48,281 nt of DNA, taken from assembly GCF_003261175.1 (NCBI RefSeq), contig NZ_QLNP01000066.1:1-48281 (forward strand), in the 5' to 3' direction. The DNA comes from Arthrobacter globiformis (GTDB taxonomy: Bacteria > Actinomycetota > Actinomycetes > Actinomycetales > Micrococcaceae). The notes under the pieces were generated by a model. The model made no database searches and had not been told where the DNA came from. It worked only from the letters and a program-made list of their open reading frames with translations. Both the position numbers and the translations under genes were made by a program. Position 1 is the first letter of the stretch. Every line of letters begins with the position of its first letter. This document shows, in pieces, positions 24,130-26,007 of the stretch.

Positions 24130-24189
24130 ATGGTGCGTGCAGAACTCCTTCTTCTTAGCTGCCGCGGCGAGGCCTCAGACGCGATCTAG
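24130..24189 (+). CDS. leuA leader peptide (four consecutive Leu codons)
   Basis: A 19-codon frame, MVRAELLLLSCRGEASDAI, with Leu codons CTC CTT CTT CTT in a row (24145-24156). CTT is rare in this GC-rich genome, which would make decoding more sensitive to charged leucyl-tRNA. It lies 78 bp upstream of leuA on the same strand. No strong Shine-Dalgarno sequence precedes ATG; a TACTGT (24121-24126) close by may be a promoter element. Ribosome stalling on the Leu run would change folding of the RNA that begins 6 nt later. The role is inferred from position and composition, and matches leucine attenuation known upstream of leuA in Actinobacteria. Confidence 0.88.
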   Translation: MVRAELLLLSCRGEASDAI

Positions 24190-24218
24190 CGCAAGGCCCA
24201 CCCTCGTCGCGGAGTCTG
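24162..24218 (+). promoter_or_regulatory. LEU element pseudoknot upstream of leuA
   Basis: Helix 1: CCGCGGCGAGG (24162-24172) with CCTCGTCGCGG (24202-24212), 11 pairs including one G-U. Helix 2: CAGAC in its loop (24176-24180) with GTCTG just 3' of helix 1 (24214-24218), giving an H-type pseudoknot. Helix 1 starts inside the leader peptide right after the Leu codons. A conserved pseudoknot named LEU element was reported upstream of leuA in Actinobacteria (recollection), and this fits that design. There is no intrinsic terminator here, so control may be on leuA translation. AAAAGG (24254-24259) precedes ATG 24268. Confidence 0.85.
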
Positions 24219-24267
24219 TGTTGCCCGGCCACCCTTTCACTCAGGAACCACAGAAAAGGCCAGATTA

Positions 24268-26007
24268 ATGCGAAACGCACAGAAGCCCTCGGGAATGCCG
24301 GTCCACCGCTACATCCCCTTCCAGGACCAGATCAAGGTCGATCTGCCGGACCGGACCTGGCCGGACAAGATCATCACCACGGCCCCGCGCTGGTGCGCAG
24401 TTGATCTGCGGGACGGTAACCAGGCACTCATCGATCCCATGAGCCCGGCCCGCAAAATGAAGATGTTCGACCTGCTGGTCCGGATGGGCTACAAGGAGAT
24501 CGAGGTCGGCTTCCCCTCCGCGTCCCAGACCGACTTCGACTTCGTCCGCCAGCTGATCGAGGGCAACCACATCCCGGATGACGTCACCATCCAGGTGCTG
24601 ACCCAGGCCCGCGAACACCTCATCGAGCGGACCTACGAGTCGCTGGTGGGCGCCAAGCAGGCCATCGTGCACCTGTACAACTCCACGTCCGTCCTGCAGC
24701 GCCGCGTGGTGTTCAACCAGGACGAGGACGGCATCCTGGACATCGCCCTGCAGGGCGCACGCCTCTGCAAGAAGTACGAAGAAACGCTGGGCGACACCCA
24801 CATCACCTACGAGTACTCACCGGAGTCCTTTACGGGCACCGAGCTGGAGTACGCGGTCCGCGTCTGCAACGCCGTCGCCGACGTCTTTGAGGCCTCCGCC
24901 GACCGACAGGTGATCATCAACCTGCCCGCCACGGTGGAGATGGCCACTCCGAACGTCTACGCGGACTCCATCGAGTGGATGAGCCGCAACCTGCACCCGC
25001 GCGAGGGCATCATTCTCTCCCTGCACCCGCACAACGACCGCGGCACCGGTGTGGCCGCCGCCGAGCTGGGCTACCAGGCCGGCGCCGACCGCATCGAGGG
25101 CTGCCTGTTTGGCAACGGCGAGCGGACCGGCAACGTGGACCTGGTGACCCTCGGCCTGAACATGTTCGTCCAGGGCGTTGACCCGATGATCGACTTTTCC
25201 GACATCGACGACGTCCGGCGCACCGTGGAATACTGCAACCAGCTGCCCGTGGCGGAGCGTGCACCCTACGGCGGCGACCTCGTCTTCACCGCGTTCTCCG
25301 GATCCCACCAGGACGCCATCAAGAAGGGCCTCGAAGCCCTGGAGAAGGATGCGGCAGCCGCAGGCAAGGACGTCAGCGACGTCACCTGGCAGGTGCCCTA
25401 CCTGCCGGTGGACCCGAAGGACCTCGGCCGCAGCTACGAGGCCGTGATCCGCGTCAACTCCCAGTCCGGCAAGGGCGGCGTGGCCTACCTGCTGAAGAGC
25501 GAGCACAGCCTGGACCTGCCGCGGCGGGCGCAGATCGAATTCTCCGGCGTCATCCAGAAGCGCACGGACACCGTGGGCGGCGAGGTCAGCGGTGCCCAGC
25601 TGTGGCAGCTGTTCCAGGACGAGTACCTGCCCTCGGCCAAGGCGGAAAGCCAGTGGGGCCGGTACTCCCTCGGCTCGGTGAAAACTGAAACCGATGAGGA
25701 CGGCTCCATGACCCTGCACGCCTCGCTGGGTGTGGACGGCACCCACGTCAACCGCACAGGAACCGGCAACGGCCCCATCGCCGCACTGCTGGACATCCTC
25801 GGCCAGGACGGCGTGGACGTGCGGGTGCTGGACTACAGCGAGCACGCCCTGTCTGAAGGCGGCAGCGCCCTCGCCGCGGCCTACGTCGAATGCGCCGTGG
25901 GAGAGCGCGTCCTGTGGGGCGTCGGCATCGATGCCAACACCAGCACATCCGCCCTCAAGGCAGTTATCTCTGCGGTGAACCGGGCCATTCGGGACGCCCA
26001 GGCCTAA
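24268..26007 (+). CDS. leuA: 2-isopropylmalate synthase
   Basis: 579 aa, the long actinobacterial LeuA type (LeuA2). Starts [23 protein letters not shown]; the TIM barrel has [13 protein letters not shown], the metal-binding [11 protein letters not shown] and [12 protein letters not shown]; the C-terminal regulatory domain (about 430-579) is where leucine binds for feedback inhibition. It condenses acetyl-CoA with 2-ketoisovalerate, the first committed step of leucine synthesis. ATG 24268 has AAAAGG 8 nt upstream. Regulated by the leader peptide and pseudoknot in front; ends at a 16-bp terminator hairpin, so it is monocistronic. Confidence 0.97.

Follow-up and report, generated by a model that had tools for sequence, protein, structure and literature searches.

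Comparative analysis of the LEU element upstream of leuA in Arthrobacter globiformis, a candidate amino acid sensor

What could a reading frame with four leucine codons in a row do in front of leuA, with no intrinsic terminator between the two? In the window, by which we mean the whole stretch of 48,281 nucleotides analysed here, a minus-strand gene of an M13-family peptidase (22065-24017) is followed by such a leader and then by leuA on the plus strand, the distance from the leader GTG (24133) to the leuA start being 135 bases (Table 1). Elements of this type upstream of leuA in Actinobacteria were named LEU by Seliverstov et al. 2005 (PMC1262725), whose description combines a Leu-run leader, a pseudoknot and a base stem in which the run pairs with the Shine-Dalgarno box of leuA. 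No conservation of unpaired bases was seen by these authors, and one copy was reported from inside a transposase gene of B. longum. Translation of the leader was judged unlikely in that paper, and a binding protein was proposed, owing to leader mutants of S. coelicolor that are at odds with a classical attenuator (Craster 1999, as cited in PMC1262725). The copy in the window is a member of this already known element and was recognised in outline by the original prediction, which had named a LEU pseudoknot upstream of leuA in Actinobacteria; it is alike in the Leu-run leader peptide, the pseudoknot and the lack of any described terminator, and its Leu run may pair, though weakly, with the Shine-Dalgarno region. 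A worked-out mechanism of the LEU element was not found in the open-licence literature searched. In C. glutamicum, according to the accessible part of a review (PMC8709942), replacement of the leuA leader together with its promoter raised enzyme activity, and the LEU element is therefore of industrial bearing.

Table 1. Positions of the leuA leader and its features in the window
Feature	Positions	Strand	Basis
-10 box TACTGT (TAnnnT), six bases 5' of the leader GTG, without recognisable -35	24121..24126	+	Placement in relatives
Leader ORF, GTG start, 18 codons and TAG (24187-24189), MRAELLLLSCRGEASDAI; predicted to be leaderless	24133..24189	+	Sequence; frame, Leu run and stop position in relatives
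Sensor run CTC CTT CTT CTT (Leu x4)	24145..24156	+	Run-to-P1 spacing; CTT as last codon in relatives
P1, 5' arm CCGCGGCGAGG	24162..24172	+	Covariation in 126 sequences (see text)
P1, 3' arm CCTCGTCGCGG	24202..24212	+	Same covariation as 5' arm
P2 (conserved pseudoknot), 5' strand GGCC, 3' end of P1 loop	24195..24198	+	Permutation test, 167 elements
P2, 3' strand GGCC	24227..24230	+	Same test as 5' strand
5-bp helix of the original prediction, 5' strand CAGAC, judged outside the conserved element	24176..24180	+	No family support
5-bp helix of the original prediction, 3' strand GTCTG, judged outside the conserved element	24214..24218	+	No family support
Probable leuA Shine-Dalgarno region AGAAAAGG, of which 24256-24259 could pair with bases 24147-24150 of the Leu run	24252..24259	+	Cross-species pairing test
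leuA, 2-isopropylmalate synthase, ATG start	24268..26007	+	NCBIfam PRK03739 (883 bits), TIGR00970 (842 bits)
leuA domains HMGL-like, IPMS_D2, LeuA_dimer	24268..26007	+	Pfam
leuA bases ACGCAC (codons 3-5), can pair with leader start 24133-24138 (GTGCGT)	24275..24280	+	MFE fold; family-level test

The leader and its conservation in relatives

The genome of the window holds one leuA match at E <= 0.001, and among the named genomes LeuA of Arthrobacter pascens has 93% identity to the window's LeuA. A search with 4227 Rfam models gave no match in the window at the curated threshold and, on 23900-24500, three unrelated matches only, far below threshold (E 2.8-8). The Leu_leader of enterobacteria (RF00512), a transcription attenuator with a terminator, shares the Leu codon run before leuA with the window, where no Rfam match was obtained. 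Terminator-like sites were absent from 24040-24320, in agreement with the original prediction, so that the intrinsic terminator with a U run before the gene, as in a classical transcription attenuator, was not seen in that interval. The ilvB leader attenuators of Actinobacteria likewise contain branched-chain codons (LVVI in M. tuberculosis) and, unlike the window, an intrinsic terminator (PMC1262725 and the accessible part of PMC13236596). The fold of the window leader was unexceptional against shuffles (z -0.83, 36 of 200 shuffles equally good). It is the comparison with relatives, and not the single window sequence, by which the element clearly exceeds chance.

For this comparison we used 306 oriented leuA upstream regions of 307 (L233, which lacks an upstream region, was dropped). 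A simple finder detected a Leu run with a strong helix in 284 of the 306; as it demands at least three consecutive Leu codons, conservation of leucine is no result of this count. Among the 22 negative regions three have a doubtful orientation and at least one (L057, genome G090) comes from a genome matched by the covariance model described below. Non-redundant filtering reduced the 284 elements to 184, the demand for 5-nt spacing and a P1 of at least 9 bp to 167, and the presence of a leuA start to 166, from which further subsets of 161 (frame closure), 148 (pairing and start tests) and 145 (Leu-codon/Shine-Dalgarno test) were taken.

Both the four Leu codons in a row and the 11-bp helix, here called P1, are present in the window as originally predicted; P1 includes one G-U pair and begins with the sixth base after the run. 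This layout recurs in the relatives: in 266 of 284 elements exactly 5 nt separate the run from P1, and in 281 the leader ends at a stop codon inside the P1 loop. All 161 elements of the subset close their leader frame upstream of leuA, while shuffles leave 90.8 +- 5.4 of 161 open (z -16.7), therefore the stop is selected. In the 126 non-redundant short-loop elements 97.6% of P1 cells are paired, with changes on both sides in 8 of the 11 pairs. A covariance model built from these 126 sequences, none of which belongs to the genus of the window, matched the window element with E 2.6e-10 and gave at least one hit in 379 of 394 genomes sampled from the class. Closer to the window, the Leu run stands 5 nt before P1 in all 52 loci fetched from the genus and P1 is fully paired in the 41 distinct ones; the variation in P1 is on one side only.

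In leuA-type elements the last codon of the sensor run is CTT in 150 of 166 (CTC in nine, CTA in six and CTG in one), a preference which rare-codon sensing or Shine-Dalgarno pairing could explain.

The start of the leader had been placed at ATG 24130, giving a frame of 19 codons. The frame and its Leu run stand, but this start is probably wrong: several genus rows among those shown (e.g. L010, L013, L015, L027) have other codons in place of the ATG, and the better kept GTG 24133, which is retained in the rows shown, gives 18 codons. A TAnnnT box was noticed 6-8 nt before an in-frame leader start in 148 of the 166 non-redundant elements, as compared with 10.3 +- 3.0 when the upstream sequence was shuffled. 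Shine-Dalgarno-like matches before the leader start were at control level (54 vs 53), and a strict sigma-70 scan of 24040-24320 revealed no promoter. The box six bases upstream of the GTG suggests a leaderless transcript beginning at that codon. Such placement fits LeuL1, the leader MRFGLLLLSCRGEGL before leuA of Streptomyces lividans, for which the accessible part of the report gives leaderless transcription by RNA-seq and no typical Rho-independent terminator (PMC8079986). Judged by that description, the two are alike in their position before leuA, the leaderless start (predicted here) and the missing terminator; the same part of the report offers mapping and annotation, with no worked-out mechanism. 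A leaderless start is not in the text of PMC1262725. In the accessible parts of the respective reports, a leuA leader is also listed in RNA-seq of C. glutamicum (PMC4046766, PMC3890552) and, without mapped start, in C. diphtheriae (PMC5784534). Leaderless poly-cysteine short ORFs of mycobacteria are described as translation attenuation (Canestrari et al. 2020, via the accessible part of PMC13236596). As far as that description goes, they resemble the present leader, itself predicted to be leaderless, in being leaderless short ORFs rich in the sensed codon and differ in that the amino acid is cysteine. To our knowledge no LEU-type pseudoknot is known for them.

The conserved pseudoknot

The original prediction included a 5-bp pseudoknot helix, which we identify, from this description, with CAGAC/GTCTG, the best-scoring contiguous loop/downstream match in the window. 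Complementary strands thus exist, but they do not behave as a conserved element. Among the 41 distinct elements of the genus its cells are paired in 91% of cases, double changes being absent, and over 167 elements of the family the equivalent segments match each other no more closely than they match partners from other species (z -0.35; 125 of 200 permutations did equally well).

Another helix, P2, is formed between the 3' end of the P1 loop and a stretch 9-26 nt after P1, and here the native partners exceed the permuted ones with z 9.8 (none of 200 permutations as good, 167 elements); a control with nearest neighbours gave p 0.012 to 7e-7. On a MAFFT alignment of 126 sequences, in part of whose rows the aligner shifts P2, its two halves pair in 68% and 75% of cells, and double changes occur in all 7 pairs. 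Second copies of the element have P2 in other letters (GATCGGCC/GGCCGATC, GCTGGC/GCCAGC, GTCAGCC/GGCTGAC). The first 13 nt of the P1 loop also gave a signal against the stretch 9-26 nt after P1 (z 4.1), with windows that overlap P2, since most loops have only 14-20 nt. A pseudoknot from the P1 loop to downstream of P1 is what the 2005 description contains, and P2 is likened to it by that text. In the window P2 has only 4 bp, and in the genus it is paired in 156 of 156 scorable cells (41 sequences) with no double change. Family-level pairing supports this candidate, 24195-24198 with 24227-24230, as the conserved pseudoknot; within the genus neither pseudoknot helix nor P1 is proven by covariation.

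The compensatory changes that could be looked for in both predicted helices are found in P1 of the 126 relatives and, in the genus, are missing from the 5-bp helix, and the Leu run is kept in close relatives. The data support the original proposal in its main lines, with a leader upstream of leuA that senses leucine and contains a covarying helix; its pseudoknot helix and, probably, its ATG start are the exceptions.

By eye, a possible mini-hairpin was noticed inside the P1 loop, in the window at 24181-24192 and in the same loop of genus relatives (GCG...CGC, GCGA...TCGC, GCT...AGC); most short-loop relatives lack the space for it.

Proposed pairing of the leader with the leuA start

The leader between its start codon and P1 pairs with the leuA ribosome binding site and first codons more strongly than cross-species partners do, the duplex reaching -20.2 kcal/mol in native combinations vs -17.5 (z 9.9), and it beats the nearest relatives in 97 to 104 of 148 elements (p 4e-5 to 2e-8). 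Control segments were flat: z was 0.5 for the DNA upstream of the leader start and -1.3 for the 24 nt that follow P1. The signal has an antiparallel order: it is found for the Leu run with the ribosome binding site (z 7.2) and for the pre-run part with the leuA codons (z 6.4), and is weaker in the other combinations (run with leuA codons z 1.4, pre-run with ribosome binding site z 3.5). Native Leu codons pair with the Shine-Dalgarno sequence better than typical Leu codons in 99 of 145 elements. A test of contiguous helices between Leu run and ribosome binding site against close relatives was weak (p 0.004-0.016, with p 0.03-0.08 for the control 12 nt before the run). The base stem described in 2005, between Leu run and leuA Shine-Dalgarno sequence, corresponds to the family-level z 7.2 signal; the pairing of the leader start with leuA codons is not in the text of PMC1262725.

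In the window itself this clamp is ordinary and its base stem weak. Its duplex has -16.2 kcal/mol, the window leader forms a better duplex with 59 of 147 partners from other species, and the predicted openness of the Shine-Dalgarno sequence hardly responds to masking of the Leu run (0.46 to 0.49). At leuB copies of the element, described below, the clamp was not detected (z -0.19, n=21). The original prediction that the output may be translation of leuA gains support from the pairing at family level, with the reservation that it is unremarkable in the window and missing at leuB copies. Such pairing of the leader 5' end with the leuA start suggests translational control, and a translational output at leuA is likely.

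Taken as a whole, the mechanism we favour, and regard as rather probable, is that a leaderless leader reads the charging of tRNA-Leu and clamps initiation at leuA. The transcript would start at the GTG of the leader, and a ribosome would load on the bare 5' end. When leucine is plentiful, the ribosome would pass the Leu run, finish at the stop inside the P1 loop and depart, whereupon P1 and P2 would form and the leader 5' end (start codon and Leu run) would form an antiparallel stem with the Shine-Dalgarno region and first codons of leuA. When leucine is scarce, a ribosome halted on the Leu codons would cover the 5' strand of the clamp and abut P1, leaving the leuA start open. Of this scheme, the comparison of relatives shows P1, P2, the constant 5-nt spacing, the closed leader frame, TAnnnT before the start, sensor codons that follow the target gene and, at family level, the clamp pairing; we infer the stalling itself, the direction of control, translation in place of transcription as the output, and a like action of the weaker clamp in the window. 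A clamp of this kind could explain the paradoxical Leu-codon mutants, as codon changes would also disturb the pairing with the leuA start.

Readout at the level of transcription seems unlikely to us. It would mean that the leader likewise senses charged tRNA-Leu, that a ribosome finishing the leader uncovers C-rich RNA on which Rho ends transcription ahead of leuA, and that a stalled one shields this RNA. The lack of an intrinsic terminator in 24040-24320 suits such a scheme, as does an excess of C over G between leader stop and leuA in 147 of 166 elements and in 19 of 21 leuB-type UTRs, both being uncontrolled counts, and the leuB copies have no clamp, so another output may exist there. However, C-richness is weak evidence in high-GC genomes, the stretch from stop to leuA is short (median 77 nt), and the pairing between leader and leuA start is left unexplained.

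A frameshift or fusion into leuA was rejected, as leuA occupies each of the three possible frames with respect to the leader (59, 58 and 49 of 166). About 100 of 166 leaders reach or pass the leuA start in the +1 frame by a first count, but this openness is no signal by the shuffle control (91 of 161 vs 90.5, z 0.1), and the -1 frame has only a slight excess (99 vs 88.0 of 161, z 2.0). In the window the first stop of the +1 frame downstream of the Leu run is a TAA that overlaps the leuA ATG (24266-24268); the overlap occurs in 5 of 52 genus loci.

Copies before other genes and their sensor codons

A second search covered 36 genomes picked mainly for at least two earlier matches, and at least two matches at E <= 0.01 were obtained in all 36, the weakest of them probably by chance. 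A second model made from 13 leuB-type copies was run on 72 chosen genomes. Sixty regions, mostly chosen for their distance from known leuA, were fetched and their genes assigned by tblastn, with NCBIfam for examples; they comprise 25 with leuA, 5 with leuC, 25 with leuB, 2 with a LeuA_dimer-like protein and 3 without such a gene (L372, L399, L403). A second leuA, with 50-56% identity to the window's LeuA, is present in 14 of the 25 leuA regions. LEU copies are thus found in front of leuC, of a second leuA and of a tiny ORF that is followed by leuB. Neither these copies nor Val/Leu/Ile versions are in the text of PMC1262725, and for the latter we found no description in the open-licence literature searched. 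The genome of the window has no second strong copy: six other matches (E 0.33-8.6) are no better than chance, and with the second model the leuA copy alone was obtained there at E <= 0.01.

Val or Ile occurs among the four codons ending 5 nt before P1 in 23 of 25 leuB loci vs 2 of 30 leuA/leuC loci (Fisher p 4e-11, a value inflated by kinship, as 12 of the 25 leuB loci come from one family and the other 13 from six). The latter count excludes L372, formerly placed in a leuA group of 26, where no leuA was found, and becomes 2 of 31 with it. The exceptions are L368 and L401 at leuB, which have no recognisable sensor run, and L349 and L402 at leuA/leuC. The sensor codons change with the pathway product while P1 and P2 persist, and sensing read by a ribosome is therefore favoured over a binding protein: the codon switch at leuB copies argues that the LEU element senses amino acids via translation of its leader, presumably by a stalled ribosome.

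The binding-protein proposal of 2005, in which a regulatory protein (an ML1624-like helicase) binds the pseudoknot and the Leu codons serve Shine-Dalgarno pairing in place of sensing, we consider very unlikely. It is argued from phylogenetic co-occurrence and the S. coelicolor mutants (PMC1262725), and the preference of native Leu codons for Shine-Dalgarno pairing, given above, agrees with it. It is opposed by the agreement of codon identity with the target gene (Val/Leu/Ile at leuB, Leu at leuA and leuC) on unchanged P1 and P2, and by the codons of leuB copies, which pair with the ribosome binding site no more than expected, so that pairing does not explain them. That the Arthrobacter-like copy is a conserved RNA without leucine response, perhaps decaying as its weak clamp and 4-bp P2 might hint, is hardly credible given the Leu run at its fixed distance in 52 of 52 genus loci and the fully paired P1 in the 41 distinct ones.

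Beyond the leaderless sensing leader and leuA clamp favoured for the window, a wider reading, which we see as evenly poised between right and wrong, would make the LEU element a single exchangeable module by which Actinomycetes sense branched-chain amino acids, composed of a leaderless leader and an H-type pseudoknot. Its sensor codons would be rewritten per gene, with Leu at leuA, the second leuA and leuC, Val/Leu/Ile at the small ORF with leuB and ilvE, and Leu/Val at a stand-alone protein of the LeuA regulatory domain type. At least two outputs would exist, namely the start-to-start clamp at leuA and a different one at leuB, where a direct effect on the ribosome may come from the pseudoknot located 5 nt beyond the sensor codons.

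For leuB copies two kinds of pairing were tried and rejected. Attenuator-like pairing of the leader with its own UTR, suggested by folds, had a mean z of -0.03 with 2 of 21 above 1.5, and codon pairing with the ribosome binding site, suggested by eye, gave z -0.97 and -0.19. Four leuB loci with a short UTR lean toward the latter (z 1.29, p 0.12).

The tiny ORF before leuB, of about 20-50 codons and often with a DRRDNGG-like motif, was found in 21 of 22 leuB loci examined; these loci were chosen by eye, the 21 starts came from a by-eye pattern, L390 was dropped, and L368, L383 and L401 were not entered. Lying between element and leuB in L345, L352, L355, L359, L363, L365, L374-L377, L384-L389, L391-L393, L395 and L398, it often encodes ALQxALDRRDNGG or DLRDxGG. 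Five such ORFs had no match to Pfam and NCBIfam models. In the pair L376/L377 it differs by 4 bases, all of them synonymous, therefore it is probably a real protein.

Strong GC-rich inverted repeats stand after the small ORF and before leuB in L355, L376 and L377 (by eye), so that the ORF may form a separate transcription unit. The leuB-type copies L386, L388, L389, L391 and L395 have long UTRs in which GCGATCCGC-like motifs were seen by eye to recur; folding of L386, L388 and L395 gave long hairpins of very high stability, and these UTRs are perhaps a further RNA element.

In L404 (190-582) and L360 (2262-2633) a LEU-like leader with MLVV and KLLV codons, respectively, precedes a stand-alone protein. 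The protein of L404 matches LeuA_dimer, the allosteric domain of LeuA, with 27.9 bits, which reaches the Pfam cut-off, and that of L360, labelled by eye, has no match. Finally, L372 (genome G505) is a LEU-like copy with LLL codons near the copy L371, with no leuA, leuB, leuC or ilvE in the 2.2 kb fetched, and is perhaps a decayed duplicate.
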